Assembly (NCBI GenBank): GCA_013141125.1
Contig: JABFRO010000002.1
Span: 186,001-250,000 of the forward strand
Reading direction: 5' to 3'
DNA: 64,000 bases
DNA from: Methylophilaceae bacterium
Lineage (GTDB): Bacteria; Pseudomonadota; Gammaproteobacteria; Burkholderiales; Methylophilaceae
The notes below the pieces were generated by a model that was not told where the DNA came from, did not search any database, and saw only the letters and a list, made by a program, of their open reading frames with translations. A program made the translations under genes and the position numbers. This document shows, piece by piece, positions 18,131 to 35,135 of this stretch (the first letter of the stretch is position 1; each line of letters opens with the position of its first letter).

Positions 18131-18589
18131 ATGAATAATTTAAACTTTACCGGCAATATCGGACGCGATTGTGAAACGCGCTATACCGCAGGCGGTGATG
18201 CCATTACCTCATTCTCGGTGGCGCTCACCAGTGGCTTTGGTGAGAAAAAACTCACCAGCTGGATGAATTGCTCCATGTTCGGCAAACGCGGTGAAGCCGT
18301 TGCGCCATACCTCAAAAAAGGTACCCAAGTCGCCATCAGCGGCGAGTTTTCAGCCCGCCCCTATACCAACAAAGAAGGCGTTGAAAAAATCAGTCTGGAT
18401 GTACGCGTCAATGATCTGACCTTGCTAGGCGGCAAATCCACCGCCAACTATGATGACAGCGGCATGAATCAGGACGCAGAACGCCAATCCGCCCCGCGTC
18501 AAGCCCCCGCAGCGGCTCCGCGCCAAGCTCCCGCCAGCAAACCGGCAGGCTCCGGCTTTGATGATTTTGAGGACGACATTCCGTTTTAG
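18131..18589 (+). CDS. ssb: Single-stranded DNA-binding protein
   Basis: The 152-residue protein has an OB fold (MNNLNFTGNIGRDCETRYT to about residue 105), a flexible alanine/proline/glutamine-rich linker and the acidic C-terminal tip DDFEDDIPF that binds partner proteins. It coats single-stranded DNA in replication and repair. The tip is intact. The uvrA/transporter/ssb order is common in betaproteobacteria. A terminator follows, and beyond it the mobile island begins. Confidence 0.96.
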   Translation: MNNLNFTGNIGRDCETRYTAGGDAITSFSVALTSGFGEKKLTSWMNCSMFGKRGEAVAPYLKKGTQVAISGEFSARPYTNKEGVEKISLDVRVNDLTLLGGKSTANYDDSGMNQDAERQSAPRQAPAAAPRQAPASKPAGSGFDDFEDDIPF

Positions 18590-18616
18590 AGTATACCTCT
18601 CGTATTGATGTAAACT

Positions 18617-18652
18617 AAACCCTCCATGTCTTTTGATATGGAGGGTTTTTAT
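18617..18652 (+). terminator. Terminator after ssb
   Basis: An 11-base perfect inverted repeat (18617-18627 and 18638-18648) with a 10-base loop ends in a T run. The left end of the mobile island lies directly beyond it. Confidence 0.9.
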
Positions 18653-18718
18653 TTGTTTACATAGTTTTAATTGTTTGCTACTCTTTCGGCATAGTGCATA
18701 CCTTGAGAGAGTGTAAAT
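18653..18718. repeat. Putative left end of the island
   Basis: TTGTTTACA at 18653-18661 and an inverted partner TGTAAAT at 18712-18718 lie just before the first recombinase start. The same 9-base word recurs at 36915. Such paired arms are what tyrosine recombinases bind, but the match is short. Confidence 0.3.
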
Positions 18719-18719
18719 A

Positions 18720-20012
18720 ATGCATCTTCGTTATCGGCTTAAATTGATCGTAATGTTTTCAGGCGAGCGTCTGCCTGTTCTCCTTGGTCTGGATGGCTTG
18801 CCCATGTTTGAGCCAACGGTCTTTTCATTGTCAGAGGTGCGCTCAAGAAACAGGGCATCCAACACGATCGACAGTTATCTAAGGTCGGTGATGGTGTTTC
18901 TACTGTTCCTTGATCTGAGGAAGATCAACCTGGAAGATCGCTTGGATGAAGGGCAATTACTTTCTCTTGGGGAAATTGAGGAGTTGGTTGGGATATGTCG
19001 GCTGCCTCTGGAAAAGATATATTCCATGCTGGACGAAGCTCCGAGCTTGTCTCCGCAATCTGCTTCATCAGTTGTTTCGTTGGAAAAATTAAGGATGAAA
19101 TCGGCAGGGCCTCCTGAGGTTGAAATTAATCCTAGTTCGGCAGCAACAAGGCTAAGGAATATCCGTGATTATCTGAGATGGCTTGCTATTGGGCGCATGT
19201 CCAAACATGGCATTGATGCATCGCTCAGGATTACATTGGAATCTTCAACTCAATACACATCGCATGCTATTGATGCTCGTCTTCCATCAGCCAGCTATAA
19301 ATCAGGTGAGCTTGACCAGCGCGAGGGATTGGAGCCGGAAGTCGTTGAGCGAATCCTGAAAGTCATCGATCCGCACTCGTCAGATAATCCATGGACGGAT
19401 GAGCATTCACGATATCGAAACGCACTCATTATTGAATGGCTGCTTTGTCTCGGGTTGCGGCGTGGTGAACTGCTTAATGTCCGTATCGGAGACGTTAAAT
19501 TTCGGGATAGCACGGTAACGGTGGTCCGTCGGGCTGACAACCCTGATGACCCTAGAAAAAACCAGCCTAAGGTCAAAACGAAGGGAAGAGAAATTCCAAT
19601 ATCTTCCAGTCTGCTAGATAAGACCAACGCTTACATCATGAATCATCGTTCAGTGATTCGCGGTGCCAGGAAACATGATTGCCTATTTGTTGCCTCGGGT
19701 ACTGGTGCCCATTTGTCGATTCCTTCACTGAACAAGATATTTAATGTCCTTCGTGAAAAATGCCCAGATATCCCGGGTCATGTTTTTCCGCATATCTTCC
19801 GCCATACATGGAACGACCGGTTCTCTGAAGAGATGGATGCCAATAAAGTTGGAGAAGATGCCGAAAAGAAAGCGCGATCATATTTGATGGGGTGGTCTGA
19901 GACATCGGGGACAGCGGCCACTTATACACGTCGCCATATTCGTAAGAAGGCTCAGGAGGTTTCACTTCAGTTGCAGAAAAATATTCTGGAAAGGGGGAGT
20001 GACGATGAGTAA
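18720..20012 (+). CDS. Tyrosine recombinase, first of three
   Basis: The 430-residue protein has an N-terminal core-binding region (SNTIDSYLRSVMVFLLFLD) and a catalytic domain with a full residue set: Arg near 247 in LGLRRGEL, the lysine region KTKGREIPIS, HIFRH near 358-362, and Tyr402 in TAATYTRRH. It should cut and rejoin DNA and move the island. In three-recombinase elements all three proteins are usually needed. Its end overlaps the next start by 8 bases (ATGAGTAA), so the genes are coupled. The start at 18720 directly follows the inverted-repeat end of the island. Confidence 0.9.
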   Translation: MHLRYRLKLIVMFSGERLPVLLGLDGLPMFEPTVFSLSEVRSRNRASNTIDSYLRSVMVFLLFLDLRKINLEDRLDEGQLLSLGEIEELVGICRLPLEKIYSMLDEAPSLSPQSASSVVSLEKLRMKSAGPPEVEINPSSAATRLRNIRDYLRWLAIGRMSKHGIDASLRITLESSTQYTSHAIDARLPSASYKSGELDQREGLEPEVVERILKVIDPHSSDNPWTDEHSRYRNALIIEWLLCLGLRRGELLNVRIGDVKFRDSTVTVVRRADNPDDPRKNQPKVKTKGREIPISSSLLDKTNAYIMNHRSVIRGARKHDCLFVASGTGAHLSIPSLNKIFNVLREKCPDIPGHVFPHIFRHTWNDRFSEEMDANKVGEDAEKKARSYLMGWSETSGTAATYTRRHIRKKAQEVSLQLQKNILERGSDDE

Positions 20013-21555
20013 TTTGCAGCCAATAACTCCATTGCGCAATACGCCACTAGATTTGCCTAGTGAAGTTAAGACGCTTAATGGTGCGCGGTTTGATCCTCGA
20101 CTAGATAGATGGGCTTATCGGGATAGCACGAGAAATATAAGTCTGAATTTCTCGGAGTGGAATGCTGCACCTGCATTAATCGATTCCGTAAAGAAGGTGC
20201 TGATTTGGTACGCCGAGAATAAGTCTCCTGATCACCTTAAGAATATGTTTGAGCGCTTTCAGCACATGCTGAGAAGTATTGATTTATATGGTGGCAATGC
20301 TGTGCAAATTAGTTGTAATGACATAATAAATTACAGGGCGAAATTATCTAAAAATACTGCTTGGTATCTCGGCAATTTGGCCGGCTTCTTGCAAAAATGG
20401 CACGATCTAGGTGTGCCTGGCGTAACGGATGATGCCGTCGCGCTACTTAAACAGCTACGCATTCAAGGCAATCAAAAAGGCGAGGCCGTTCTGACGATGG
20501 ATGCCGAGAATGGTCCTTTCTCGGACATTGAAGTAGAAGCTATTCAAGCTGCACTCGGGTGTGCTTATGAAGAGGGCAAGATAGATTTAGAGGATTACCT
20601 TCTTGTCTGGTTATTTTTGGCGCTAGGGCAACGCCCGATTCAATATGCTTCTCTAAAAGTGTGTGATGTTGGAACTGAGGAGTCAAAGGACGGTGCGACT
20701 ATATATACGCTGAGGGTGCCCAGGGCGAAGCAGCGTGGACACTTGTCACGAGGAGATTTCAAGCAGCGTGTCTTGATTCCACAAATTGGTGTGAAGCTTG
20801 TCCAGCATGCAATGGAAGTACAGGCAAATTTCATGGAGACCCTGCCGAATCCAGGTCATGCCCCGTTGTTTCCAGCGAAAAGATCACGACTAAACGAACC
20901 AAAAGGATTTGAGTACCATCGTACATCACAGACATTGTCGGATGCTTTGGAAGCGGTGCTGCTAGGCTTGAATGTCGTATCAGAGCGCACAGGCGAGCGA
21001 CTCCATATAACAGCTACGCGATTCCGCCGTACGCTGGGTACTCGCGCAGCGATGGAAGGCCATGGTGAATTGGTAATCGCAGAGTTGCTTGACCATACAG
21101 ACACCCAGAATGTCGGCGTTTATGTACAAGCCACGCCAGAAATCGTTGAACGTATCGATAGGGCGATGGCCATGCATCTAGCTCCGCTGGCTCAAGCTTT
21201 TGCTGGTGTCATTATTGCCGATGAGTCCGAGGCGACTCGCAAGGATGATCCAGCAAGTCGTATATGTGATCCGCGAATTGACTCATCCATGAAGCCGATG
21301 GGTAATTGCGGCAAGTATGGTTTCTGTGGCTCCTTAGCCCCCATTTCTTGCTACACCTGTAGGAGTTTTCAGCCATGGTTAGACGGCCCGCATGAGGCCG
21401 TGCTAAATCATCTTATTCTGGAGCGTGAACGCTTGCTGGTTGGAAGTGATATACGCATCGCATCTATCAATGACAGGACAATTCTTGCCGTGGCCGAAGT
21501 TGTGCATCGCTGCGAAGCAATCAGGGCTGAGATGCGGGAGGTAATGGATGTCTGA
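20005..21555 (+). CDS. Tyrosine recombinase, second of three, with C-terminal cysteine motif
   Basis: I choose the ATG at 20005, five bases after AAGGGGGAG, giving 516 residues. The catalytic domain shows Arg210 in LGQRPIQYAS, RFRRTLGTRAA near 337 in place of the usual HxxR, LDHTDTQNVGVY with the presumed nucleophile Tyr373, and then a cysteine-rich tail CGKYGFCGSLAPISCYTC followed by FQPWLDGPHE. That tail is a hallmark of Tn554 TnpA/TnpB-like recombinases and probably binds zinc. The gene overlaps both neighbours by 8 bases. Confidence 0.85.
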   Translation: MSNLQPITPLRNTPLDLPSEVKTLNGARFDPRLDRWAYRDSTRNISLNFSEWNAAPALIDSVKKVLIWYAENKSPDHLKNMFERFQHMLRSIDLYGGNAVQISCNDIINYRAKLSKNTAWYLGNLAGFLQKWHDLGVPGVTDDAVALLKQLRIQGNQKGEAVLTMDAENGPFSDIEVEAIQAALGCAYEEGKIDLEDYLLVWLFLALGQRPIQYASLKVCDVGTEESKDGATIYTLRVPRAKQRGHLSRGDFKQRVLIPQIGVKLVQHAMEVQANFMETLPNPGHAPLFPAKRSRLNEPKGFEYHRTSQTLSDALEAVLLGLNVVSERTGERLHITATRFRRTLGTRAAMEGHGELVIAELLDHTDTQNVGVYVQATPEIVERIDRAMAMHLAPLAQAFAGVIIADESEATRKDDPASRICDPRIDSSMKPMGNCGKYGFCGSLAPISCYTCRSFQPWLDGPHEAVLNHLILERERLLVGSDIRIASINDRTILAVAEVVHRCEAIRAEMREVMDV

Positions 21556-23599
21556 TATTTTTCTATTCAAGCCCAAGGCGGAACTTGATGCCTCACAGAA
21601 TCTGCGTCGTTTTATTGATTCATGTCGCAACGAGCTGACGGTATTCGGTGCAGATTTGCCATTTGACGAAAATGTTTGGGACATAACTGACTCAATCAAT
21701 TTGAAAGGGCATGGAAACAAAAGGCATAGATTGGTCTTTAGTAATTTGGAGACGGTTAATGATAAGGCTCCTGCTCCAATGGCGGAGTCATTCCTGTCTT
21801 TTGCCAAAGCCTATTTTCGTTACATGCAGGGATTTCGCCCCATTGTCGGCGTTGGGCCAAGACTCGTCGCATTGCGTGCTTTGGAAGCCGCTTTGAGAGT
21901 GAATGGAGGCGATGCCGGCCCAGCCCGTGCAGACATTCTGATTTTCAATCGCGCTGCTCAAATGATTGTTGAAAAATACACCGAAGCTGCAGCCTATAGG
22001 ATGGGTGGGCAGCTTGAAATGTTGGCGGACTTTTTAACTGATAACAAATTAACAACTGTCCCTGCTCGGTGGAGGAACTTTATCAAACGTCCTGGTGATG
22101 CGGTTCGGGTTGGTAAAGAGTTTGATGAACGTCGCAAAGAAAAGATGCCATCTCAGGCTGCCTTGGATGCTTTGCCGCAAATATTTCGAAATGCTGTTGA
22201 ACCAATTGATGTGATTGTTAGCTCAGCGGCGGCGATGATGTGTGCCTCGCCGGATCGAATTAGTGAGCTTTTATCTCTCCCGCTTGATTGCGAAGTTCGG
22301 CAGAAGAACAAAAAAACTGGTGAGGAGGCTTACGGTCTGCGTTGGTGGCCGGCAAAGGGGGCTGACCCAATGATTAAATGGGTTGTTCCTTCAATGGCTA
22401 GTGTTGTTCAAGAAGCTATCGAAAAAATTCGCAAGGTAACTGATGAGGCTCGTCGTATTGCAAAATGGTATGAGGGTCATCCGGGGAAAATTTATTTAGT
22501 TGGCGAACTGGAATATCTACGTGGGCAGGAGTGGGTATCAATGCAGGAATTGGCAGGCATACTTGGTATGTCAGAACGCGCAGGTGCTAATACTTGGTGT
22601 AAGACGAATCGCATTGATGTCATAAAAAAAGAACAAGGCAAAATTTATGTGCGGTTGAGTGATGTTGAAAAAGTAATTATTGGAATGTTGCCAAGAGACT
22701 TCCCGCTGCTGGATAAAGAGACTGGCTGCAAATACAGCGAAGCTTTGTTTGTGGTTCGAGTCAATCAGCTCCACGCTCAGCGAGGCACCTACAATTGCCA
22801 GATTGAACCAATAACCATCAATCAAATTAACACTGGCCTTGGCGGTCGAACTGAGCATGGGTTTGCCTCCATATTTTCTAGATTTGGATTCATTGAGCCA
22901 GATGGAAGCCCAATTAACATTAGCACCCATCAGTTCCGTCATTACCTCAATACGCTCGCGCAAGCGGGTGGCCTAAGCCAGCTCGACATCGCCAAATGGT
23001 CGGGTCGAAAAGATATTCGGCAGAACGCTGCATACGATCACGTCACACCTGGTCAAATGGTGCAGAAGATACGTGATGCGATTGGTGATGACAGCACCAT
23101 GTTTGGCCCACTGGCTGAACTAGCAAAAAAGACTCTTATCCCTAGAGACGAATTCGCTCGCTTGGTTGTGCCCACTGCGCACACCACTGAACTGGGTTAT
23201 TGCATTCACGACTACACCATGTCGCCATGTCAGCAGCATCGGGATTGTATTAATTGCACAGACTTGATTTGCGTAAAGGGTGATGAAGAGAAGGAGCGAC
23301 GGTTGCGTCAGCAGCTTGAGGAGGCGCGAGATTTATTGCGTCGGGCAGAAGAAGCCACAAAAGATGGCTATTACGGAAGTGATCGTTGGCTGGAGCATCA
23401 CACGTCAACCGTGGAGCGATTGTCACAACTCTGTTCCATCATAGATGATCCTAAAGTGCCCATAGGCGCAGTGATTCAATTGTCACAGCCGAAATCAGTT
23501 ATGCAGCAAGTTACCATGCAACGCAGGTTAGAGTCGGTGGAGGAAATGAGTCATGCACCGGCCTCTCAGTCGAGTACAGCGACCATAACGGGAGAATGA
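21548..23599 (+). CDS. Tyrosine recombinase, third of three, with internal HTH-like insertion
   Basis: The 683-residue protein is the largest of the trio. Catalytic residues seen are Arg in SPDRISELLSLPLDC (near 239), His461 and Arg464 in THQFRH, Trp in AKWSGRKD, and Tyr496 in NAAYDHV. Between the first arginine and HxxR, residues about 330-376 look like an inserted excisionase-type helix-turn-helix (MQELAGILGMSERAGANTW). The C-terminal part has a cysteine cluster (CIHDYTMSPC, CINCTDLIC) and a long coiled coil (EEKERRLRQQLEEARDLL). The start follows GGGAGG and overlaps the previous gene by 8 bases. Confidence 0.85.
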   Translation: MSDIFLFKPKAELDASQNLRRFIDSCRNELTVFGADLPFDENVWDITDSINLKGHGNKRHRLVFSNLETVNDKAPAPMAESFLSFAKAYFRYMQGFRPIVGVGPRLVALRALEAALRVNGGDAGPARADILIFNRAAQMIVEKYTEAAAYRMGGQLEMLADFLTDNKLTTVPARWRNFIKRPGDAVRVGKEFDERRKEKMPSQAALDALPQIFRNAVEPIDVIVSSAAAMMCASPDRISELLSLPLDCEVRQKNKKTGEEAYGLRWWPAKGADPMIKWVVPSMASVVQEAIEKIRKVTDEARRIAKWYEGHPGKIYLVGELEYLRGQEWVSMQELAGILGMSERAGANTWCKTNRIDVIKKEQGKIYVRLSDVEKVIIGMLPRDFPLLDKETGCKYSEALFVVRVNQLHAQRGTYNCQIEPITINQINTGLGGRTEHGFASIFSRFGFIEPDGSPINISTHQFRHYLNTLAQAGGLSQLDIAKWSGRKDIRQNAAYDHVTPGQMVQKIRDAIGDDSTMFGPLAELAKKTLIPRDEFARLVVPTAHTTELGYCIHDYTMSPCQQHRDCINCTDLICVKGDEEKERRLRQQLEEARDLLRRAEEATKDGYYGSDRWLEHHTSTVERLSQLCSIIDDPKVPIGAVIQLSQPKSVMQQVTMQRRLESVEEMSHAPASQSSTATITGE

Positions 23600-23600
23600 G

Positions 23601-24026
23601 ATGGCGCAGAAAAGAGCCAAAAACCTTGATGATGCAGGCATAAAGCAAATCGTTGAAATTCTCGATGGCTGGTCTGGGAAATTAACATGGGAACTATTGA
23701 TAGATGCTATTGAACTGCGTATGCATAGTCGTTATACACGTCAGACTTTGCATAAACACGAACGTATTTACAATGCTTTCGAGCTTCGCAAGAAAGGTAT
23801 TGCCGATGGCGACGGAGAAATTCGAACTGTTCGTTCCCCGGAGTTGCAAAAATCATTGGAACGTATAGCAAGGCTGGAAGTTGAGAATAAGCGTTTAGAG
23901 TCTGAGAACGAGAAGCTGTTAGAGCAATTTGTTCGCTGGGCATATAATGCTCATACGAGAGGGTTGGATAACAACTTTTTAAATCAGCCGCTCCCACCGG
24001 TAAATCGTGGGCAGACCAAGAAGTGA
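23601..24026 (+). CDS. Small coiled-coil protein of the recombinase module
   Basis: The 141-residue protein starts one base after the third recombinase gene. Its N-terminal half has a segment that could be a DNA-binding helix pair (TWELLIDAIELRMHSRYTRQTL); its C-terminal half is a charged coiled coil (IARLEVENKRLESENEKLLE). By position, size and shape it corresponds to TnpC of Tn554 or to GmtX of gamma-Mobile-Trio elements, small proteins that modulate transposition; the exact relation is not settled from sequence alone. Confidence 0.6.
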   Translation: MAQKRAKNLDDAGIKQIVEILDGWSGKLTWELLIDAIELRMHSRYTRQTLHKHERIYNAFELRKKGIADGDGEIRTVRSPELQKSLERIARLEVENKRLESENEKLLEQFVRWAYNAHTRGLDNNFLNQPLPPVNRGQTKK

Positions 24027-24173
24027 TTGCCACACTAGCTATCTGTGCTGTTGATTACGGATACCAAATATTCAGATGTGATGCGGAACCACGAATTGTG
24101 TAATATCCTTTGTGTGTATAGTATTCGCTAGAGTATCAAGCTTTAACTCATAATAAATTATCAGGGACGTTAC

Positions 24174-25712
24174 ATGCTCACCGGCGAACTTCGCAGCCAA
24201 ATAGATTCAATCTGGAACTCCTTCTGGTCAGGCGGCATCTCCAACCCCATGGAGGTGATGGAGCAAATCACTTATCTGCTGTTCCTGCGCAGGCTGGATG
24301 ACCTGCACACCCTCGAAGAAAACAAATCCACCCGCCTTGGCAAGCCGATAGAGCGGCGCATTTTTCCCGAGGGCAAAGATGCCAAGAAGCGGAATTACAA
24401 CGACCTGCGCTGGTCGCGCTTCAAGCACTTCGCCCCTGCCGAGATGTACACCGTGGTGGGCGAGCATGTGTTTCCTTTCCTGCGCACCATGGGCGGCGAC
24501 GGCTCCACCTATGCGCACCACATGAAAGATGCGCGCTTCACCATCCCCACCCCGGCACTGCTCGCCAAAGTGGTGGACTTGCTCGACCACGTGCCGATGG
24601 AAGACCGCGACACCAAGGGCGACCTGTACGAATACATGCTGGGCAAGATAGCCAGCGCCGGGCAGAACGGCCAGTTCCGCACCCCGCGCCACATCATCCA
24701 GCTCATGGTCGAAATGTCCGCGCCCAACCCCAAAGACATCATCTGCGACCCGGCCAGCGGCACCTGCGGTTTTCTGGTGGCGGCGGGCGAATACCTGCGC
24801 CAGCACCATCCTGAAATCCTGCGCGATGCCAAAGCCAGCAAACATTTCCACCACGGCATGTTCCACGGCTACGACTTCGACAACACCATGCTGCGCATCG
24901 GCAGCATGAACATGGCGCTGCACGGCGTGGACAACCCCGACATCCGCTACCGCGATTCGCTGGCGCAAGACCACGCCGGGGATGAAGACAAATACTCCCT
25001 CATCCTCGCCAACCCGCCGTTCGCCGGATCGCTCGATTACGAAAACACCGCCAAAGACCTGCTCGCCATCGTCAAAACCAAAAAGACCGAGCTGCTGTTC
25101 CTGGCCCTTTTCCTGCGCCTGCTCAAACCCGGCGGCCGCGCTACCGTTATCGTGCCGGATGGCGTGCTGTTCGGCTCATCCAACGCGCACAAAGAACTGC
25201 GCCGCATGCTGGTCGAAGACCACAAGCTGGAAGCCGTCATCTCGCTGCCCTCCGGCGCATTCAAACCTTACGCGGGCGTTTCTACCGGCATCCTGATTTT
25301 TACCAAGACCAACTCAGGCGGCACGGATAACGTCTGGTTCTACGACATGCAGGCTGATGGCTGGAGCCTCGACGACAAGCGGCAGCCGTTGCTGCCCGAG
25401 GACAAGCTGGGCGCTATCCCTGCACAAGCATTGAGCGAAGCGGAACACGCCAAGAACAACCTGCCCGATGCGTTGGCACGGTGGACGCAACGCGAGAACG
25501 CAGAACTGCAACGCCCCCGCACTGCACAGAGCTTCTGCGTACCTAAGGCCGAGATTGCCGCCAACGGCTACGACCTCTCCATCAATCGCTACAAAGAGGT
25601 GGTACATGACGTGGTGGAGCATGTGTCACCCAAGGAGATTATGGCAAGGCTGGACAAGTGGGAAACTGAGATTGCAGCAGGCATGAAAGAGCTTGAGAGG
25701 CTGTTGGGATGA
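24174..25712 (+). CDS. hsdM: Type I restriction-modification system, N6-adenine DNA methyltransferase subunit
   Basis: The 512-residue HsdM begins with the helical N-terminal domain (QIDSIWNSFWSGGISNP, ITYLLFLRRLDD). The methyltransferase domain has SAM motif I in DPASGTCGFLVAAGEYL near residue 195 and the catalytic NPPF at about 280-283. It methylates adenine in the site chosen by HsdS. The gene is GC-rich compared with the recombinases before it, hinting that the restriction operon arrived from another source. Its last four bases (ATGA) overlap the hsdS start. About 147 AT-rich bases upstream should carry the operon promoter. Confidence 0.96.
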   Translation: MLTGELRSQIDSIWNSFWSGGISNPMEVMEQITYLLFLRRLDDLHTLEENKSTRLGKPIERRIFPEGKDAKKRNYNDLRWSRFKHFAPAEMYTVVGEHVFPFLRTMGGDGSTYAHHMKDARFTIPTPALLAKVVDLLDHVPMEDRDTKGDLYEYMLGKIASAGQNGQFRTPRHIIQLMVEMSAPNPKDIICDPASGTCGFLVAAGEYLRQHHPEILRDAKASKHFHHGMFHGYDFDNTMLRIGSMNMALHGVDNPDIRYRDSLAQDHAGDEDKYSLILANPPFAGSLDYENTAKDLLAIVKTKKTELLFLALFLRLLKPGGRATVIVPDGVLFGSSNAHKELRRMLVEDHKLEAVISLPSGAFKPYAGVSTGILIFTKTNSGGTDNVWFYDMQADGWSLDDKRQPLLPEDKLGAIPAQALSEAEHAKNNLPDALARWTQRENAELQRPRTAQSFCVPKAEIAANGYDLSINRYKEVVHDVVEHVSPKEIMARLDKWETEIAAGMKELERLLG

Positions 25713-26860
25713 ATGCTTGGGGTAGGGTTCCTTTGGCGAAGCTCGCGGAGTCAGTTGACTATGGAGTTACTGCATCTGCAACATCTAAGCCAGTTGGGCC
25801 AAAATTTCTCCGCATAACTGACATACAGGACAATGCGGTGAATTGGGAAACCGTGCCTTGGTGTGAGTGTGATTCACGGAGTTTAGCTGAATCACAACTT
25901 AAGCCGGGTGACATTGTTTTTGCCAGAACTGGAGCAACAACAGGAAAAAGCTATCTCATCAAGGATTGCCCACCGGAGACCGTCTTCGCTTCCTACCTTA
26001 TTCGTGTTCGAGTTCGAGAAAATGTTGAGCCTCGCTACGTAAGCCACTTTTTTCAAACTACAGATTATTGGTCTCAGATTACAAGAGGTTCACGCGGTGC
26101 TGCACAGCCAGGGGTAAATGCAACTACGCTAAAAACTCTTGAAATTCCTGTTCCACCCCTGCCTGAGCAACGACGCATTGCCGCAATCCTTGACCAAGCA
26201 GATGTGCTGCGGGTTATGCGCAGGGTTGCTTTGGTAGACTTGGATAGCCTCACGCAGTCCATTTTCATTGAGATGTTTGGTGACCCCGCAACCAACCCGA
26301 AAAGCTGGCCGTACAAAAGTCTTATTGGTTTGGGGAATGTTGTAACTGGGGGTACACCGCCGAGTTCAAAACCAGGCATGTTTGAGGGCCCAATTCCATT
26401 TGTCACGCCCGGTGACTTGGAAAGCGATGAGTCAGTGAAGAGAAGCTTGACAACAGAGGGTGCAAAGGAAAGCAGGACGGTGCGTGCGGGATCAACTCTT
26501 GTCTGCTGCATCGGCGCGACAATTGGAAAGATGGGTATCGCGCGGGTGCAAAGCGCGTTTAATCAGCAGCTCAATGCGGTTGAATGGACCGGCGAAATCG
26601 ATGACATCTACGGCTATGCAGCACTACGATTCTTCAAACCGACGATTAGAGCCTGGGGTGCATCCACCACGCTTCCAATTCTGAAGAAATCATCATTCGA
26701 GAAGATTGAAATCCCAGTTCCCCCAGTATCCTTACAACGAGAGTTCGCAGAAAAAGTCAAAGCGGCAGAAAAACTGCGCGTGGCTCATAAGTCCTCGTTG
26801 GCCGAGCTAGATGATCTATTTGTCTCGCTTCAAAATCTCGCCTTCAAGGGAGGGCTGTAG
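25709..26860 (+). CDS. hsdS: Type I restriction-modification system, specificity subunit
   Basis: The 383-residue HsdS has two target-recognition domains, each closed by a conserved helical spacer: IPVPPLPEQRRIAAILDQAD near residue 145 and IPVPPVSLQREFAEKVKAAE near 335. Each domain reads half of a split DNA target; the target itself cannot be predicted here. It overlaps hsdM by four bases and is lower in GC, common for S genes, which change by recombination. The next gene starts two bases after its stop. Confidence 0.95.
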   Translation: MNAWGRVPLAKLAESVDYGVTASATSKPVGPKFLRITDIQDNAVNWETVPWCECDSRSLAESQLKPGDIVFARTGATTGKSYLIKDCPPETVFASYLIRVRVRENVEPRYVSHFFQTTDYWSQITRGSRGAAQPGVNATTLKTLEIPVPPLPEQRRIAAILDQADVLRVMRRVALVDLDSLTQSIFIEMFGDPATNPKSWPYKSLIGLGNVVTGGTPPSSKPGMFEGPIPFVTPGDLESDESVKRSLTTEGAKESRTVRAGSTLVCCIGATIGKMGIARVQSAFNQQLNAVEWTGEIDDIYGYAALRFFKPTIRAWGASTTLPILKKSSFEKIEIPVPPVSLQREFAEKVKAAEKLRVAHKSSLAELDDLFVSLQNLAFKGGL

Positions 26861-26862
26861 CT

Positions 26863-27957
26863 ATGAGAGGTGAGTTCATAGGGGTGTGGGAGGAAACCTA
26901 CCGAGAAATATGGAACCCACTGCTACAGCAGGAAGCTGTGCCCAGCGACGTATATTCCGCGCTCTACCAAGAACTGTATGAAGCAATCGGTGATACACAC
27001 GGCGTCGAGTTTTCACTGCAGATCAACGATGCCATTCAGCTTCGTGAAGCGTTTGATCGTGCTTTGACGCTCGCAGGTATAGATGTAGGTCGTGAAAAGG
27101 CGGACGGAGTTTATGCAACTGTTGATCAACCTGATGTAACTGCAAGGAGGGCTGCAATAGAATCTGCGCTTGCAAGTCTAATTGGCGACGCTGCCAAAGC
27201 GGCTCAGGCGCTAAATCAAGCGTTGCGAGAGCTTGCAAGCGAACCAGTAAGACGAGCAGAAGCAAGAGAACGCGCTCTTGGACTCATATTGAATGAAACC
27301 GGGAAAAGCCAAGAAGCCTTTGAAGAGGTCCGTGCATCTATGCTGATTGGTGAACGGGCCATAGTCACTTTTCTTGAATCGGTTTTCGATATCCTCGAAG
27401 AATATGGTGGGGATGCGCTTTCAAATCCCTATTTCAACTTGCTTACCACCTTCATTGAAAAGTTTAGCCTTCGCTATGACTTGCGACGCCCCTGTCTGCT
27501 TTGCCCGACACTTCCGGGTGTTTTCAATAGTCTTGTACGTGACTTAAAGGAGGCAACCATCAAAGACGTTCATCTAAACGGGCTGATGAAGGATTACGAG
27601 GAAGCGATCCGTGATCTGCGCACTGACTGCACAGATACTCGGATCAAGACCTGCATGGTCAAGCAAATAAACTTGTTGGAAGCGATGGGAAGCAGCACTT
27701 CTGGAGTAACAGCGAAAACTGTGGGGCAAATTTGCAATCAAGTCGGAACTTGGCCTCATGAGAGCATCAAGCAATCAATGAAAAGCCTTTACGAATTTAC
27801 CTGCGACTATCCAGGAATCAGACATGCGGGCACACCTGGAAGTGCGCTTCGTACAATTGAGATGCGCGACATGGTTGCGATGTCTATCTTACTGACGGGT
27901 TTTATCCCCTATCTGTCGGACAAAGTAAATTCCGAAACGGTGTATTGGAGGAGTTAA
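26863..27957 (+). CDS. Unknown protein encoded between hsdS and hsdR, Abi-like C-terminal region
   Basis: The 364-residue protein is not a known Hsd subunit. It starts two bases after hsdS and ends 69 bases before hsdR, so it belongs to the operon. It is helical and soluble. The middle has alanine-rich helices (ALASLIGDAAKAAQALNQAL) and a CLLC motif near residue 208. The C-terminal 60 residues (FTCDYPGIRHAGTPG, then MRDMVAMSILLTGFIPYL) resemble the RHGG-type end of abortive-infection/HEPN-like proteins. A role as an accessory or backup defence factor is inference. Confidence 0.6.
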   Translation: MRGEFIGVWEETYREIWNPLLQQEAVPSDVYSALYQELYEAIGDTHGVEFSLQINDAIQLREAFDRALTLAGIDVGREKADGVYATVDQPDVTARRAAIESALASLIGDAAKAAQALNQALRELASEPVRRAEARERALGLILNETGKSQEAFEEVRASMLIGERAIVTFLESVFDILEEYGGDALSNPYFNLLTTFIEKFSLRYDLRRPCLLCPTLPGVFNSLVRDLKEATIKDVHLNGLMKDYEEAIRDLRTDCTDTRIKTCMVKQINLLEAMGSSTSGVTAKTVGQICNQVGTWPHESIKQSMKSLYEFTCDYPGIRHAGTPGSALRTIEMRDMVAMSILLTGFIPYLSDKVNSETVYWRS

Positions 27958-28026
27958 GTTAATGACCAGTACCGCTACCCACCATATGTTTAGGCAAACA
28001 ACACGCATTGCTATAAGGAAAAATAA

Positions 28027-31000
28027 GTGAGCAACTTCGCCTTCCTCAAGTCTGAGTGGCCGATGCTGTTCGATGCAGCAACCCAAGCAGAAGGAATGGC
28101 GAACACCGATGCCCGCGCCTCCTGCTTCTATTCCCGCCGCGCGTTGGAGCTGACGGTGGCGTGGCTCTACACCTACGACAAAACCCTCAAGCTGCCATAC
28201 CAAGACCACCTGAGCGCGCTCATTCATGAGCCCACTTTCCGCAAGGCAACGGGCGAGGCGGTGTTCACCAAGACCAAGCTCATCAAGGACCTCGGCAATC
28301 TGGCGGTGCACAGCACGCGCAAGATCATGCACGCCGATGCGCTGACGGCGACGCGCGAGTTGTTTCATGTTTGTTACTGGCTGGCGCGCACTTATGGCAA
28401 GAAGTCGCGCCCTGATCCCGGCCTGATTTTTTCCGCTACCTTGCTGCCGCAACCTTCCGCCGCACCGGCACAGTCACTCGACCAATTGCAGAAGCTGGAA
28501 GCGCAACTGCACGAGCGCGACCAAAAACTCACCACGCTGCTGGCGGACAAGACGGCGCTGGATGAGGAACTGAAAAAGCTGCGCGAGGAAATCGCTGCGG
28601 CCAAGAAGACCAACTCCGCGCAACTCGACACCCACGATTATTCCGAAGCGCAAACCCGCGATTACTTCATCGACCTTCTGCTGAAAGAAGCGGGTTGGCC
28701 GCTGGATAAGTCGCAAGACCGCGAGTTTGAAGTGAGCGGCATGCCCAGCGATTCCGGCGTCGGCTTTGTCGACTATGTGTTGTGGGCAGATGACGGCAAA
28801 CCGCTGGCGGTGATTGAAGCCAAGCGCACCAAGCGCGATGCCAAGGTGGGGCAGCAGCAAGCCAAGCTGTATGCCGATTGCCTGGAAGCGAAGTACGGTC
28901 AGCGTCCCGTGATTTTCTACACCAATGGCTATGAGCATTGGCTGTGGGACGATGCCAGTTACCCGCCTCGTGCGGTGCAGGGCTTTTTCAAAAAGGCCGA
29001 GCTGGAGTTGATGATTCAGCGCAGAACCACGCGCAAATCGCTGGCAGCCGCGCCGATTAACGAGGCCATCGTCGAACGCTATTACCAGACCCGCGCGATC
29101 CGCCGCATCGGCGAAGCCATTGAAACCGACCATCAGCGCAAAGCCTTGGTGGTGATGGCGACCGGGGCGGGCAAGACGCGCACGGTGATTGCGCTGGCCG
29201 ATGTCCTGATGCGCTGCAACTGGGCCAAGCGCGTGCTGTTTCTGGCCGACCGTGTGGCCTTGGTAAGGCAGGCGGTCAATGCCTTCAAGACGCACCTGCC
29301 GGATTCTTCGCCGGTGAATCTGGTTACCGAAAAAGATACCGAGGGGCGCGTTTACCTTTCCACTTATCCCACCATGATGGGCTTGATTGATGATGCGAAG
29401 GACGGGCAGCGCCGTTTTGGAGTGGGGCACTTCGACCTTATCGTGATCGACGAGGCGCATCGCTCGGTGTATCAAAAATATCGCGCCATCTTTGAGTATT
29501 TCGACAGCTTGCTGGTGGGACTGACGGCCACGCCCAAGGATGAAATCGACCACAACACCTATGGCTTGTTTGATCTGGAAAGCGGTGTGCCGACCGATGC
29601 CTATTCGCTGGACGATGCGGTGTCTGATAGGTTTCTGGTTCCGCCCGAGGCGGTTTCCGTGCCGCTCAAGTTTCAGCGCGAGGGCATCAAGTACGACGAG
29701 CTATCGGAAGACGAGCAGGAGCAGTGGGACGCACTGGAGTGGAACGAGGACGGCACTGCGCCTGATGAAGTGGGCGCCGAGGCGCTCAACAAGTGGCTGT
29801 TCAATACCGACACCGTGGACAAGGTGCTGGCGCATGTGATGACGCGCGGGCAGAAGGTGGCGGGTGGCGACCGGCTGGGCAAGACCATCATCTTTGCCAA
29901 GAACAACGACCACGCCGAGTTCATTGCCGAACGCTTCAATATCAACTACCCGCATTACAAGGGCGAGTTTGCGCGGGTCATCACTTTCAAGACCGAATAC
30001 GCGCAGAGTCTGATCGACAACTTCTCCGCCAAGGACAAGATGCCGCATATCGCCATCTCGGTGGATATGCTGGACACCGGCATCGACGTGCCGGAGGTGT
30101 TGAACCTGGTGTTCTTCAAGGCGGTTCGCTCCAAGACCAAGTTCTGGCAGATGGTCGGGCGCGGCACACGTTTGTGCCCGAATGTGTTCGGGCCGAACGA
30201 GGACAAGAAATTCTTTTACCTTTTCGACTACTGCCAGAACCTGGAATATTTCAGTCAGAACCCGGATGTGACCGACGGTGCGTCCAGCGAAGCGCTGGGG
30301 ACGCGCTTGTTCAAGGCGCGCCTGCAACTGATAGGCGAGCTGGACAACCAATTCATCGGTGAGCAGTCCATGCTCCAAGTCGAAGATGCGTATTACGATA
30401 AGGGTGACGACAAGACGCTGCGCCGCGATTTGGCCGACATGCTGCATACGCAGGTGGCGGCGATGAACATCGACAATTTCGTGGTGCGGCCACAACGCAG
30501 GCTGGTGGAAAAATATGCCCAGACTGAGCCGTGGAAAAAGTTGGGTGTGGCCGAGTTTACCGAACTGGCGCAATACGTGTCGGGTCTGCCCACCGAGTTG
30601 GCCGATGAAGACGAAGAGGCCAAGCGTTTCGATTTGCTGGTGCTGCGCACGCAGCTTTCCATCTTGCAGGCCAATCCGGGCTTCGCCAGCCTGCGCGACA
30701 AAATCATCGCCATTGCCAGTGCACTGGAAGATCAGCAGAGCATCCCGGCCATCAAGGCACACATCGTTTTGATTCAGTCGATGATGGGAGAGGAGTGGTG
30801 GGCGGATGTCACCGTCGCTATGCTGGAGACGGCTCGCAAACGGCTGCGCACGTTAATCAAGCTCATTGAGAAAGGTAAGCGCATCGTCGTTTACACCGAC
30901 TTTGAAGATGAGCTGGGCGAAGGCACAACAGTCGAGTTGCCGGAAATGGGCATTGGCATGAACTTCGAACGCTTCCGCGACAAGGCACGCCAGTTCCTTA

Positions 31001-31428
31001 AAGCGCACGAAAGCCATCTGGCATTGCAACGCCTGCGCCGTAATCAGCCGCTCACAGCATCCGACCTCGACGAGCTGGAGCGGATGTTGGTCGAAGCGGG
31101 CGGCACACAGGCAATCATTGATCGAGCAAAGGAACAAAGCCAAGGGCTGGGTGTGTTCATCCGCTCGTTGGTAGGGCTGGATCATGAAACTGCAAAGCAG
31201 ACATTTAGCCAGTTCATTTCAGGGGCTGCGGTGTCCGCTAACCAAATTGAGTTCATCAACCTTGTGGTCGATTACCTGACCGAGAATGGTGTGATGGAGC
31301 CGGACAGGCTGTATGAGTCTCCGTTTACCGACATCAACCCCTTGGGGCCGGAAGGGGTGTTTCCGTCGGCCAAAGTGGATCAGATAGTGCAGGTGCTCAC
31401 TGAAATTCGGAATAGTGCGGTTGGATAG
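28027..31428 (+). CDS. hsdR: Type I restriction-modification system, restriction/translocase subunit (EcoEI type)
   Basis: The 1133-residue HsdR starts at GTG after an AAGGA site. Domains in order: an N-terminal DUF4145/HEPN-like region (residues 1-120), a coiled coil, a PD-(D/E)XK nuclease with VDYVLWADD and IEAKRTKRD near 250-268, the helicase core with Walker A ATGAGKT near 378 and DEAH near 475, the second RecA domain with DTGIDVP and MVGRGTRLCP, and an EcoEI-type C-terminal domain. All catalytic motifs look intact. It pulls DNA past the complex and cuts unmethylated DNA. Confidence 0.95.
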   Translation: MSNFAFLKSEWPMLFDAATQAEGMANTDARASCFYSRRALELTVAWLYTYDKTLKLPYQDHLSALIHEPTFRKATGEAVFTKTKLIKDLGNLAVHSTRKIMHADALTATRELFHVCYWLARTYGKKSRPDPGLIFSATLLPQPSAAPAQSLDQLQKLEAQLHERDQKLTTLLADKTALDEELKKLREEIAAAKKTNSAQLDTHDYSEAQTRDYFIDLLLKEAGWPLDKSQDREFEVSGMPSDSGVGFVDYVLWADDGKPLAVIEAKRTKRDAKVGQQQAKLYADCLEAKYGQRPVIFYTNGYEHWLWDDASYPPRAVQGFFKKAELELMIQRRTTRKSLAAAPINEAIVERYYQTRAIRRIGEAIETDHQRKALVVMATGAGKTRTVIALADVLMRCNWAKRVLFLADRVALVRQAVNAFKTHLPDSSPVNLVTEKDTEGRVYLSTYPTMMGLIDDAKDGQRRFGVGHFDLIVIDEAHRSVYQKYRAIFEYFDSLLVGLTATPKDEIDHNTYGLFDLESGVPTDAYSLDDAVSDRFLVPPEAVSVPLKFQREGIKYDELSEDEQEQWDALEWNEDGTAPDEVGAEALNKWLFNTDTVDKVLAHVMTRGQKVAGGDRLGKTIIFAKNNDHAEFIAERFNINYPHYKGEFARVITFKTEYAQSLIDNFSAKDKMPHIAISVDMLDTGIDVPEVLNLVFFKAVRSKTKFWQMVGRGTRLCPNVFGPNEDKKFFYLFDYCQNLEYFSQNPDVTDGASSEALGTRLFKARLQLIGELDNQFIGEQSMLQVEDAYYDKGDDKTLRRDLADMLHTQVAAMNIDNFVVRPQRRLVEKYAQTEPWKKLGVAEFTELAQYVSGLPTELADEDEEAKRFDLLVLRTQLSILQANPGFASLRDKIIAIASALEDQQSIPAIKAHIVLIQSMMGEEWWADVTVAMLETARKRLRTLIKLIEKGKRIVVYTDFEDELGEGTTVELPEMGIGMNFERFRDKARQFLKAHESHLALQRLRRNQPLTASDLDELERMLVEAGGTQAIIDRAKEQSQGLGVFIRSLVGLDHETAKQTFSQFISGAAVSANQIEFINLVVDYLTENGVMEPDRLYESPFTDINPLGPEGVFPSAKVDQIVQVLTEIRNSAVG

Positions 31429-31593
31429 GCTACAGTAAAACAAACCGTATGAGGCATTGTCACCCCATGGACAATCCTGAGGGCAGGGGCTATCATTTCA
31501 AGTTATAGTTCCTCAGTATATTGAGAACAAATAAAGACGAAGAAGAAAATGAATATTGCTGGCTCGGTAACAGTCACACAGGAGAACCCAAAC

Positions 31594-32127
31594 ATGAACA
31601 TAGTTTATGCGGCTCCAAAACCTTATGGGCAACCTCAAGTTTATATTTCCGAAGTAGCGAAGGACGTGGCTAAAGAAATTAGTTATGGTTCTGGAGATGA
31701 TTTAATTGCACTCGTTGAAAACATCGGTGGTAGGGTGACTTATCAAGAGTTGCGCGAGCTTGAAAAAAGTGACTCTGGTTCAATACTTGTTGAGCCCGAT
31801 GGGAAGTTTGAAATAACTCTTCCTAACCACACAAGTATGCAGCGTGATCGTTTTACTATCGCACATGAAATAGGCCATTTGGTTTTGCACTTCATGTTAA
31901 ATAAAGGGAAAGCTGATCATGAAGGTTTGGCAGCAGCTCGCTATGGCTCTGGTCTAGTGGAGTATGAGGCTAACTGGTTTGCAGCTTCTTTCTTGATGCC
32001 AGATGATCAATTCAAACTATGTTATGAAAGCAATGCGGCTGATTTGAATGCTGTTGCTGCTAAGTTTGCGGTATCTTTAACTGCGGCCGCAGTGAGAGCA
32101 AAGGCATTGGGACTTAGTGGTTACTGA
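31594..32127 (+). CDS. ImmA/IrrE-family metallopeptidase
   Basis: I favour the ATG at 31594, nine bases after AGGAG, giving 177 residues; an in-frame ATG at 31549 would add 15. The peptidase domain has the zinc site HEIGH in RFTIAHEIGHLVLHF and a third ligand probably in VEYEANWFAASFLMP. Family members cut repressors or other regulators after a signal (ImmA with ImmR, IrrE/PprI with DdrO). No HTH domain is fused here. The stop overlaps the start of the next gene by 11 bases, so the two products are coupled and probably act together. Confidence 0.85.
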   Translation: MNIVYAAPKPYGQPQVYISEVAKDVAKEISYGSGDDLIALVENIGGRVTYQELRELEKSDSGSILVEPDGKFEITLPNHTSMQRDRFTIAHEIGHLVLHFMLNKGKADHEGLAAARYGSGLVEYEANWFAASFLMPDDQFKLCYESNAADLNAVAAKFAVSLTAAAVRAKALGLSGY

Positions 32128-33349
32128 CCATTCGCTTCCTGATGGCCTCCAAGATCATGGCTATCTCAAACCTACGCTGAGAATTTTTTTAAGCGTGGAT
32201 ATAGTTAACTCCACTTCATTTAAACAAGCAGCCCGTGGTCATTTAGAAAAGAAGCTGAGACAAGCGGACGTGCCTATTGAGAATGACCGAGAGGAAATTT
32301 GGTTTTCTCCGATCGCCCGGTTTTATCGCGGCATTGAGCGAAAGCTTGGGGAAGAGTGGAGGAAGCGATGTGATTCAATTACTGATTTAGGGGATCCGGG
32401 TTCTCCACCAACTCTTTGGAAGGCATCCGGTGACGAAGTTATTTATGAGAAAAAATTAGTTTCGCCGCTTCAGGCATTGCTGACTACCCGCGCGTGGATG
32501 GCAGCAGTAAATGAGCATCGGTTAGAACTTAAAGAAGAGTTTCCAATACTAGATTTGAAAGCCTCGGCATGGCTCGCAGGTTTTCCAGTGAATAACGCTG
32601 AAGTCGTTTTGCGCCGTACTCCTGATGAGTTAAATCCACTTGAAGATTTAACTGAAGGTGACTCCTTTTTGGTAAATATTCTTCGGCTAAAAGAATTGCA
32701 TAAGCAGTCCAGAAGTGACGATGGGGACATATTTCTGGACTTTATTGGCCCTTCAATGGATACCGGATTTCGAGTTTCCTCCTTGGCTACGCCACGTAAA
32801 TTGGCCATTACCATTGACCTTGCTTACATGGTCGCTCATGCAGCAGATGCGATGCCGAAGCACATTTCTTTTCCATTGCTGAGGCCTCCTTTGTTTCAAT
32901 ATGACGGGCGTATCCCCTTGAAGGGGGTTTCGGATGGGGCTCCATACCCTTTTTTCTGGATAGATATGAAAGAGGATGACGCCATACTCGTCGAAGAGGA
33001 TAAGTTGACGGGCCGTAAGAGACTACTGTGTGCAGAAGTTCTTCCGTTCTGCACGGGATTTTTCTCGGAGCATCATGAAAGAGGTGCGTTCATGACCCCA
33101 TATCTGGTGGATGAGCCCACGACCTCACCTTTTAGTCATGTTCCAGAGGTGCATAAGAAAAGATTGGCGGGACTTGTATATTGGGCACAAGAGCTTAATA
33201 AGCGGGAAGAGGAAAAAGCATCTCAATTGGCCATTAATGAACCAACTGTTCCGCAAGAACCCGCCTCGGTTCCGCCTACGTTTCCTGAGTTGTGGACTGA
33301 GTTGGCGAAATTTTTCATTAGCAGACAGCCTGGGATTGTTCAAAAGTAA
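32117..33349 (+). CDS. Nucleotide-cyclase-like protein (class III fold, Pycsar-like), partner of the peptidase
   Basis: The 410-residue protein starts at GTG with GGGA upstream, inside the peptidase gene. Residues about 20-240 follow the class III nucleotide cyclase pattern: FLSVDIVNST with Asp28, and WKASGDEVIY with Asp106 as the second metal ligand; LDLKASAWLAGFP and the DTGFRVSSLATPRKL segment match later core strands. The rest (240-410) is unassigned and soluble. Cyclases of this type make cCMP or cUMP in Pycsar antiphage systems. No TIR or membrane effector is next to it; the neighbour is a peptidase. The function is inferred from motif pattern only. Confidence 0.5.
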   Translation: MVTDHSLPDGLQDHGYLKPTLRIFLSVDIVNSTSFKQAARGHLEKKLRQADVPIENDREEIWFSPIARFYRGIERKLGEEWRKRCDSITDLGDPGSPPTLWKASGDEVIYEKKLVSPLQALLTTRAWMAAVNEHRLELKEEFPILDLKASAWLAGFPVNNAEVVLRRTPDELNPLEDLTEGDSFLVNILRLKELHKQSRSDDGDIFLDFIGPSMDTGFRVSSLATPRKLAITIDLAYMVAHAADAMPKHISFPLLRPPLFQYDGRIPLKGVSDGAPYPFFWIDMKEDDAILVEEDKLTGRKRLLCAEVLPFCTGFFSEHHERGAFMTPYLVDEPTTSPFSHVPEVHKKRLAGLVYWAQELNKREEEKASQLAINEPTVPQEPASVPPTFPELWTELAKFFISRQPGIVQK

Positions 33350-33378
33350 TACTGACAGCAACTTGGGTTAATGTACAT

Positions 33379-33418
33379 GAAACGCCAATCGGATCGCACC
33401 CGGTTGGCGTTTCGCTTT
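33379..33418. terminator. Bidirectional terminator between convergent genes
   Basis: A 10-base perfect inverted repeat (33379-33388 and 33404-33413) with weaker pairing inside its loop lies between the cyclase-like gene and the convergent HTH-peptidase gene. Confidence 0.7.
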
Positions 33419-33423
33419 ATAGC

Positions 33424-34500
33424 TTATGCAAGTCTCAGACTTGGAATATCTTTCGATTTTATAATTTGCTTATCTACCGGATTATCAATTAAATTAAATA
33501 TCAATCCATATAGCTCCCCGCTAGGAATGTAAAGCTCTTTAGCAACATGCTCTTTTGTAATTCTGTCTTCCCAAAGCTTGCGGAATATCATTTCCCAAAG
33601 CGTAGATTTCTCTCTCGGCAATCCATTAGGCTCCGATCTTCCAAACTGCTTATTAATCTGAATACAGAAAGTTCTATATTGCCAATCACTCAGACGCTCA
33701 GCTTTATGTAGCCGATAAGCTAGCGCAGAAACTGATATTCCCCATCGAGACTTCGCCTGTACTAATTGATTCAATGAGGTGATAAAAGGAACATTGCCGA
33801 TCAAATCCATTGTCGGCATAAGGACATGGGAAGCAAACTTATCGGCTTCTATTTCTGCTTGCCGCCCTTGCGGTTTCGTATGCCTATGGAGAACCAAATG
33901 CCCCAATTCATGCAACGCATCAAATCTGCTTCTTTCAGCCGTGCTGAAGGAATTTAGAAAAATATATGGAATCCCATCGCGCCAACATGAAAATGCATCT
34001 AGATTTTTTGTATCTTCACAAAGTGAAAAGATTCTCACGCCTTTGGATTCCAACAATTTAATTACATTCGATATTGGCTTTTCACCAAGCCCCCAATATG
34101 TACGCAATACTTTTGCGGCAGCATCTGGCTCGTTCTCATGTTCCAAATTTATCAAGTCTACTTCGGGCAAATTGAATTTATCTGAAACCCAATCGGCAAT
34201 TAGATATGCAAATGATCCAGCCATTAAAGCAGAATCTCTTTCTCTTGCTGTCATGGCCGAAAGACTGCGGAAACTTACTGAGTCAGGAGTCGGAATATCT
34301 ATGTCGTCACCGCAGAAAAAATCAACAGGGAATTTTAGCGCCTTAGATAGAGCATCTATGGTTGATTGCTCGATATTTTCTGCCTTTCCTTGTTCAATCC
34401 TAGAGAGATGCACAGCAGTAATTCCGGCCAAGTCGGCCAGCCCCTTGCCGGTCAATTGCCTTCGTTTTCTGGCAATAATAAGTCTTGATGGATTAAACAT
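33424..34500 (-). CDS. HTH (XRE) plus ImmA/IrrE metallopeptidase fusion
   Basis: The 358-residue protein has an N-terminal XRE helix-turn-helix (LIIARKRRQLTGKGLADLAG, then AVHLSRIEQGK) and a peptidase domain with HELGH in RFDALHELGHLVLHRH and the third-ligand region EIEADKFASHVLMP. Fused proteins of this type often are regulators of toxin-antitoxin or phage-defence loci, where the peptidase acts on the repressor itself or on a partner. The C-terminal 100 residues are unassigned. Its start lies two bases after the stop of the 34503-35135 gene, so the two form an operon. Confidence 0.85.
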   Translation of the reverse strand: MFNPSRLIIARKRRQLTGKGLADLAGITAVHLSRIEQGKAENIEQSTIDALSKALKFPVDFFCGDDIDIPTPDSVSFRSLSAMTARERDSALMAGSFAYLIADWVSDKFNLPEVDLINLEHENEPDAAAKVLRTYWGLGEKPISNVIKLLESKGVRIFSLCEDTKNLDAFSCWRDGIPYIFLNSFSTAERSRFDALHELGHLVLHRHTKPQGRQAEIEADKFASHVLMPTMDLIGNVPFITSLNQLVQAKSRWGISVSALAYRLHKAERLSDWQYRTFCIQINKQFGRSEPNGLPREKSTLWEMIFRKLWEDRITKEHVAKELYIPSGELYGLIFNLIDNPVDKQIIKSKDIPSLRLA

Positions 34501-34502
34501 GG

Positions 34503-35135
34503 TTAAGCTTTTTTGCTTATCTGGATGTCGAAGTCTTGATCGTCAGTATCAGGTTTGTCTGATTTAACCGACAAATCACTCCAATCATCATCCTGAATGA
34601 TGAAAATTCGCTCATCAAACGTTCCGAAGCTTCCATTCTTAATTGCGCGCGGCTTAGACAGTTCAGCCTTTACAATGCCGTCATTAAAAGATACACAGTA
34701 AAACCATACATGCGTATTTTCCCTAGCCTTGTCCTCATCTTCCATGTAAGACCACAAATATCCTGCTGGGTTATTAACAAGTCCGGCGATGCCACTCCCT
34801 TTGCTGGATATTGGGCATGGGTCTTTCATACTGCATGCCACATCAACATTTTGGAACAAAAGTACGACACCAAGATTCTTGTTTGAGATTCCTTCTACAC
34901 CATTATGTCTCGTCATTTCCCAGCCATGTTTACTGACAAATATTAATCTTAGCGCTGCCAGTCCTGCATGATATGAATATGTACCCGGAGCACTTGCTGA
35001 GTGTAGAATGGTTGCCTCATTTCTTGCGGAAACCGCCTCAAGTGCTATGCCTTGAAGTTCTCTGATAGTTACATCGAAATCAAACAGTTTATTATTGATT
35101 TCGTCTTGCTCTTGAAAAACAGTCGCTGAATTCAT
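34503..35135 (-). CDS. Unknown protein in operon with the HTH-peptidase
   Basis: I do not recognise this 210-residue soluble protein. The ATG at 35135 is a better start than a TTG four codons upstream. It contains GVVLLFQNVDVACSMKDPCP and VNNPAGYLWSYMEDEDKARE, and a very acidic C-terminal part (SDKPDTDDQDFDIQI). It precedes the XRE-ImmA/IrrE gene with a 2-base gap. Such a pairing often means a target or toxin controlled by the peptidase-regulator; that is inference from position. Confidence 0.55.
   Translation of the reverse strand: MNSATVFQEQDEINNKLFDFDVTIRELQGIALEAVSARNEATILHSASAPGTYSYHAGLAALRLIFVSKHGWEMTRHNGVEGISNKNLGVVLLFQNVDVACSMKDPCPISSKGSGIAGLVNNPAGYLWSYMEDEDKARENTHVWFYCVSFNDGIVKAELSKPRAIKNGSFGTFDERIFIIQDDDWSDLSVKSDKPDTDDQDFDIQISKKA

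Follow-up and report, generated by a model that had tools for sequence, protein, structure and literature searches.

A GInt-type mobile island with defence genes at the 3′ end of ssb in a Methylophilaceae genome

The 64,000-nucleotide stretch of DNA analysed here (the window; positions 186,001 to 250,000 of contig JABFRO010000002.1 from a Methylophilaceae bacterium) contains, immediately after an ssb gene, a run of four tightly packed genes, three of them related to tyrosine recombinases and one small, at the head of an island with defence genes. We refer to these genes as ginA to ginD, following the operon of the GInts, a class of site-specific mobile islands to which the island is assigned below. 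The operon and the two island ends comprise the following features, with protein lengths in amino acids (aa).

18131-18589, plus strand: ssb, the target gene, whose last two codons and stop codon lie at the left end of the island
18581-18586, plus strand: attL exchange region with the sequence CCGTTT, which covers the Pro-Phe codons at the SSB tip (a probable placement as to the exact six bases)
18609-18661, plus strand: left-end motifs TGTAAAC and GTTTACA, flanking a terminator-like hairpin
18720-20012, plus strand: ginA, tyrosine recombinase, 430 aa (R247, K286, H358, R361, W392, Y402)
20005-21555, plus strand: ginB, tyrosine recombinase, 516 aa (R210, K242, R341, H364, Y373; box-II His absent)
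21548-23599, plus strand: ginC, recombinase-related, 683 aa (R237, K270, H461, R464, W484, Y496)
about residues 324-382 of the ginC product: winged helix
23601-24026, plus strand: ginD, 141 aa, with helices in the N-terminal part and one long helix in the C-terminal part
36885-37012, plus strand: right end, with GTGTAAAC at 36885, GTTTACA at 36917 and TTTAC..AGGTAT..AACC at 36989-37014
37013-37018, plus strand: attR exchange region CCATTT, beyond which the right flank begins

The open reading frame (ORF) of ginB can start at GTG 19999 (518 aa) or at ATG 20005 (516 aa). With the latter start ginA and ginB overlap by 8 bp, as do ginB and ginC, and ginD begins after a 1-bp gap. GinA and GinB match Phage_integrase (8.9e-14 and 2.7e-6), and GinB is also a full-profile match to the NCBIfam model NF041502, ‘site-specific integrase’ (612 bits; cut-off 350). 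GinC has no Phage_integrase match in the Pfam search and scores weakly against NF041502, well under the cut-off (19.5 bits, 3.3e-4), although GinC can be aligned with GinB over the later catalytic boxes (hhalign E 2.2e-7). No PDB relative was found with GinA as a single sequence, whereas GinA as a profile matched XerA, XerD and integrases. GinD is predicted to fold into short helices and one 40-residue helix at residues 80-119 (mean pLDDT 76), and a PDB search with its model gave no match with an E-value of 0.001 or lower. The initial annotation, which had described a recombinase trio of 430, 516 and 683 aa with 8-bp overlaps and a small coiled-coil fourth gene of 141 aa, is borne out on the first count by the ORFs, overlaps and profile matches and on the second by the predicted long helix. 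The same four-gene order was found in the genome loci L057, L058, L059, L061 and L062 as well as in the plasmid records L096 and L097, and given this recurrence the linkage and order of the four gin genes exceed chance.

Nine genome loci of GinC relatives were compared, seven of which include DNA upstream of ginA, and the tip of ssb was found there in all seven (L057, L058, L059, L061, L062, L063 and L064). The plasmid GInts L096 and L097, with 8-bp gin overlaps, are likewise located at ssb, as are L106, on a plasmid, and G120, a genome element; L104 has no upstream sequence for the comparison. L063, which nearly duplicates L059, was excluded from some alignments together with L060, L064 and L065, which are partial loci. 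When the left end of the window is aligned with those of six loci, a common order is seen that starts at the SSB tip: first CCNTTY and the stop codon, then TACC and TGTAAA, and after these a hairpin and, in most, GTTTACA. The stem sequence of the hairpin varies between elements with its complementarity kept, and a stem followed by a T-run was seen by eye in 10 of 11 ssb-inserted left ends, L106 being the exception.

At the opposite end, the window reads TTTAC and AGGTATGCAGAACCATTTTGA at 36989-37021, a motif with a single occurrence in the 64 kb within 2 mismatches (0.01 expected). A sister element in Methylotenera (G173, locus L058, contig JABFQV010000005.1) carries the same right-end motif, GGTATACACAACCATTTTGATTGCTATCGC, and the right ends of L061 and L062 are similar to that of the window. 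The right end of pTROUS1 was not placed, as the right-end pattern found no match there, and a right-flank pattern sought in 187 family genomes matched, beyond the window, only in G092 and G195, neither being an ssb end. The sequence between 36793 and 37012 reads as AT-rich. The direct repeat at the two ends, CCGTTTTAGA at 18581 and CCATTTTGAA at 37013, is alike at 7 of 10 positions and was placed by comparison of elements, because so short a repeat would not stand out alone; a repeat of attL sought to the right within the window gave matches at chance level only. The attL six-mers vary by host (CCGTTT, CCGTTC, CCTTTC, CCTTTT and CCATTT), and the attR six-mers are CCATTT in the window and G173, CCGTTT in L061 and CCGTTC in L062. 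By this comparison CCNTTY is probably the stretch exchanged, its exact six bases being equally provisional. A literature search, mostly without full texts and without supplements, returned nothing placing the exchange in the Pro-Phe codons of SSB. An exchange site in conserved codons at the ssb tip would help explain the common ssb target of GInts with little sequence identity, a target called remarkable in the published text of PMC5385486. Separately, a GInt right end directly abuts another left end at L061:10590-10700 and L149:752-900, as if two islands had once stood in tandem.

An uninterrupted site was identified for the sister element. In G006, which belongs to the genus of G173 and has no GinB match, ssb continues into TTTTGATTGCTATCGC, and the gene that follows the ssb tip and TTTTGATTGCTATCGC shares 87.6% identity with the one to the right of the island in G173; by sequence, G006 presents the empty site of the G173 element. 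Among 29 ssb loci read, one (G016) has a GInt-like left end, and tblastx of the ssb flanks was too noisy.

The gene order and the ssb target correspond to the plan of GInts. According to the published text of Bardaji 2017 (PMC5385486), GInts begin with a ginABCD operon of three recombinases and a small protein; the cargo comes next, and the 3′ end is short and AT-rich. The same text gives a cargo range of 2.5-70 kb, a fixed target flanked by imperfect direct repeats of 10-17 nt, and the end of ssb as the insertion target in six of eleven GInts from diverse species, with the SSB product unaltered. GInt-type elements are also filed as the Tn6571 family (PMC10121019, PMC8865565). The window element resembles GInts in the four-gene operon at its 5′ end, in the order ginA-ginB-ginC-ginD, in the cargo past ginD (about 13 kb at 24174-36792, inside the published range) with its defence genes, in its insertion at the ssb end and in the short imperfect direct repeats. 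Homologous gin operons are found on Pseudomonas and E. coli plasmids, with GinC identities of 25-57%, although the records do not name them GInts. We conclude, with a probability of roughly 95%, that the mobile island in the window, 18.4 kb long (18587-37018) and headed by a ginABCD operon, is a GInt, which inserts at specific sites and lies here at the end of ssb. Membership rests on gene plan, ssb target, homologues and published text, the type proteins having been compared by description. The mobile, defence-carrying island adjoining ssb with a trio at its head, as initially annotated, is thereby upheld. GInts as a class and GInts with defence genes, the latter reported in E. coli in published text, are known already, and the window element is a further example; a defence-island carrier in Methylophilaceae is thereby given its class, and its ends are placed.

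Several points weigh against the assignment. The type GInt proteins, from P. stutzeri DSM 4166, entered the comparison only as described in published text, and the gin operons L102, L103, L105, G202 and G542 have no ssb match alongside. The low SSB identity between loci (36-40% to the window, versus 67.7-90% for GinA, in six scored loci) is confounded as a sign of transfer, because the window SSB is itself an outlier. An empty site, which the initial annotation had suggested looking for between ssb and VF530-like genes of relatives, was obtained for the sister element (G173/G006) and not for the window's own insertion, the searched genomes including no other member of the host's genus; a VF530-like match was present in 25 of 80 relatives, in none of them adjacent to ssb by coordinates.

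Transfer between hosts is more cleanly suggested by the locus L057, from a metagenome-assembled genome of Gallionella, whose identity to the window is 90% in GinA and 56.6% in the neighbouring MFS gene; the family members L058, L059 and L064 give 72-75% in GinA and 66.5-67% in the MFS neighbour. This pattern may be a sign of horizontal spread. A GinC match was found in 5 of 399 genomes of the order, the window's own genome counted. As to ssb itself, the window SSB (18131-18589) has a median identity of 38.8% to 29 family members, which share a median of 67.8% with one another, and its best matches, at 45-56%, come from two further families within the phylum. For the neighbouring MFS gene the same comparison gives ordinary values (70.5% against 68.0%), and no second close SSB was found in the window's genome. 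The window ssb thus looks replaced, judging by these identities. Gin operons at about 30% identity also occur in L150, L151 and L152, contigs of a viral collection, and two plasmid copies are each in two pieces, ginB of an E. coli plasmid (L104:1197-2759) and ginA of a Stutzerimonas plasmid (L103:3010-4331).

Of the three classes put forward in the initial annotation, recombinase-in-trio (RIT), Tn554-like and Gamma-Mobile-Trio (GMT) elements, none is the best fit, since the element agrees with GInts in gene plan, protein lengths, homologues and its target at ssb. An RIT element, in which three recombinases move between inverted repeats, would account for three adjacent tyrosine recombinases, but RIT proteins are shorter (315-410 aa, against 430, 516 and 683 aa here), RIT elements have 34-bp terminal inverted repeats and no ginD, and among the 25 longest of 94 inverted repeats no pair joins both island ends; this explanation has next to no chance of being correct. 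Tn554 also combines tyrosine recombinases (TnpA, TnpB) with a small helper, TnpC, to which GinD has been reported in published text to be weakly similar, but it has two recombinases and no counterpart of GinC, whereas the window has three recombinase-related genes. The label ‘Tn554-like’ is nevertheless near the mark, because one group, in published text, places ginABCD elements as subfamilies within a Tn554 family.

The cargo between ginD and the right end comprises the following genes.

24174-25712, plus strand: hsdM, type I restriction-modification
25709-26860, plus strand: hsdS, type I restriction-modification
26863-27957, plus strand: 364-aa gene weakly like PADLOC PDC-S32
28027-31428, plus strand: hsdR, type I restriction-modification
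31549-32127, plus strand: M78-peptidase protein
within 31549-33349, plus strand: 410-aa protein without family
33424-34500, minus strand: RmrA match
34503-35147, minus strand: RmrT match
35583-36792, plus strand: two proteins without clear family, 273 and 112 aa

No conjugation family was among the matches of the 10 cargo proteins scanned. The defence genes in the cargo are compatible with a GMT element, since those elements are described in published text as mobile and rich in defence genes. NCBIfam holds GMT models, but no GMT-named match was obtained at E up to 1, and four genes with an ssb target fit a GInt, which leaves the GMT assignment a vanishingly small probability.

Catalytic residues were compared in alignments of 16 GinA, 15 GinB and 18 GinC sequences, the window included. 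In GinA, R247, H358, R361 and Y402 are kept in 16 of 16 sequences, K286 in all by the printed box, and W392 in 15. GinB keeps R210, K242, R341, H364 and Y373 throughout (15/15), with T, I, K, R, N, Y or V and in no case His at the box-II His position, a feature in which the window element differs from GInts as described. These residues bear on a further explanation, that the element belongs to the strand-biased circularizing elements (SEs), which are related to GInts and have four genes, intA, tfp, intB and srap. SEs share with the window element the gene number, tyrosine recombinases, a fixed target and a 6-bp exchange, and in the published text of PMC10214605 they are found only in Gammaproteobacteria. 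Their second gene encodes the non-catalytic Tfp, which is without catalytic residues, whereas the second gene of the window element, ginB, encodes catalytic Arg, Lys, Arg, His and Tyr residues. With SEs compared by description, we regard this explanation as very improbable.

In GinC, R237, K270, H461, R464 and Y496 are present in 18 of 18 sequences and W484 in 17, in an alignment with only 18 of 683 columns invariant. By alignment the window GinC has the first Arg and a full R-K-H-R-Y set, unlike the published GinC, in which the first Arg is missing according to PMC5385486, and either that Arg or the RHRY motif according to other published text; the source does not treat this trait as defining the class. 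The assignment of R237 and K270 as box-I Arg and Lys rests on the form of the motif and on weak alignments in a common register, with hhalign E 0.0026 against GinA and 0.059 against GinB (probabilities 11.7% and 0.9%). Once the insert is omitted, the alignment of the GinC core profile to GinB lies largely in boxes II and III. Boxes I and II are separated by 97-126 residues in GinA, by 105-170 in GinB and by 218-256 in GinC, and the longer spacing in GinC is a possible reason why papers describe GinC otherwise. The literature search, with the limits given above, found GinC nowhere called catalytically complete. Near the GinC C-terminus, 23189-23293 encodes a conserved Cys cluster (GxC, PC, C, C) that is possibly metal-binding.

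The stretch between boxes I and II of GinC contains a winged helix that matches BldC and the Xis of phage Pukovnik in Foldseek (probability 0.96-1.00; E 0.37-1.3). VIA-align Z scores are 7.3 for BldC and 7.1 for Pukovnik Xis, and unrelated helical proteins reach 6-7.2 elsewhere on the GinC model, so that the likeness, taken from a predicted model, is statistically weak. HTH_17 gave E 0.01 on the window GinC and matched 2 of 16 GinCs, under the cut-off. Searches of solved structures returned no recombinase with the GinC profile and nothing useful with the GinC insert. The GinC model has a mean pLDDT of 42 and is better only at the winged helix (block means 73-84) and at about residues 571-650. 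An excisionase-like role of the winged helix may be suggested from the model. It is conceivable, and held here with clearly less than even confidence, that GinC, rather than being a dead structural subunit, is a third active recombinase whose catalytic domain is split by an excisionase-like winged helix, with a directionality factor built in, and that three strand-cutting enzymes, including a GinB without the box-II His, act on one short SSB Pro-Phe site. If this is true, models of GInt recombination change.

For the GInt assigned here, it may be proposed that GinA, GinB and GinC, together with the small GinD, would free the island as a circle by recombination between attL and attR, and would insert the circle by recombining it with the final codons of ssb. 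The exchange would take place within about six bases, CCNTTY, equivalent to the Pro-Phe codons of the SSB tip, and the left end would preserve the SSB protein by supplying a stop codon together with a terminator-like hairpin. Circle formation in the window's host and a need for all four proteins may be expected by analogy with another GInt, for which others have shown, in published text, that all four gin genes are required.

The left-end pattern was found in 20 of the 187 family genomes, at 23 sites and with 0 control matches; each of the 20 has one left-end site at the ssb tip (G007 placed by coordinates only), and one of the 23 sites, G191:C62, was left out of the reading. Gin matches follow in nine genomes (G000, G007, G173, G195, G208, G209, G211, G026 and G191), at a contig end in G026 and in pieces in G191; G187 has a short GinA-like piece only. 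In the DNA read, no gin match was found in the other ten (G016, G021, G148, G156, G160, G171, G175, G184, G193 and G200), in four of which genes like the right flank of G173 occur about 0.6-3.4 kb further on. By sequence, these solo left ends look like sites from which islands were lost with the stop codon and terminator retained, or they are possibly native ssb ends that GInts resemble. The loci in which a GInt-like left end (stop, TACC, TGTAAA) follows ssb with no gin genes in the DNA read, in 10 genomes, are L107, L136, L139 and L141-L147.

Decay of islands appears to be common, because 10 of 20 left ends have no gin match in the DNA read and ginA is broken or partial in G191 and G187. This favours an explanation in which the window element is a GInt by descent that is now immobile, its operon a resident marking an old insertion. 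In the window, however, all four genes are open, the catalytic residues are conserved and both ends are recognisable, and we consider immobility unlikely, though a good deal less so than the other alternative classes.

Elsewhere in the window, three ORFs without Pfam families lie at 51653-53409, between mobB-like and moeA-like molybdenum-cofactor genes, and may form a separate small insert, with a GC content of 34% at 52001-53000. Two small overlapping ORFs at 44347-44870 resemble what we take to be a YefM-YoeB toxin-antitoxin pair.

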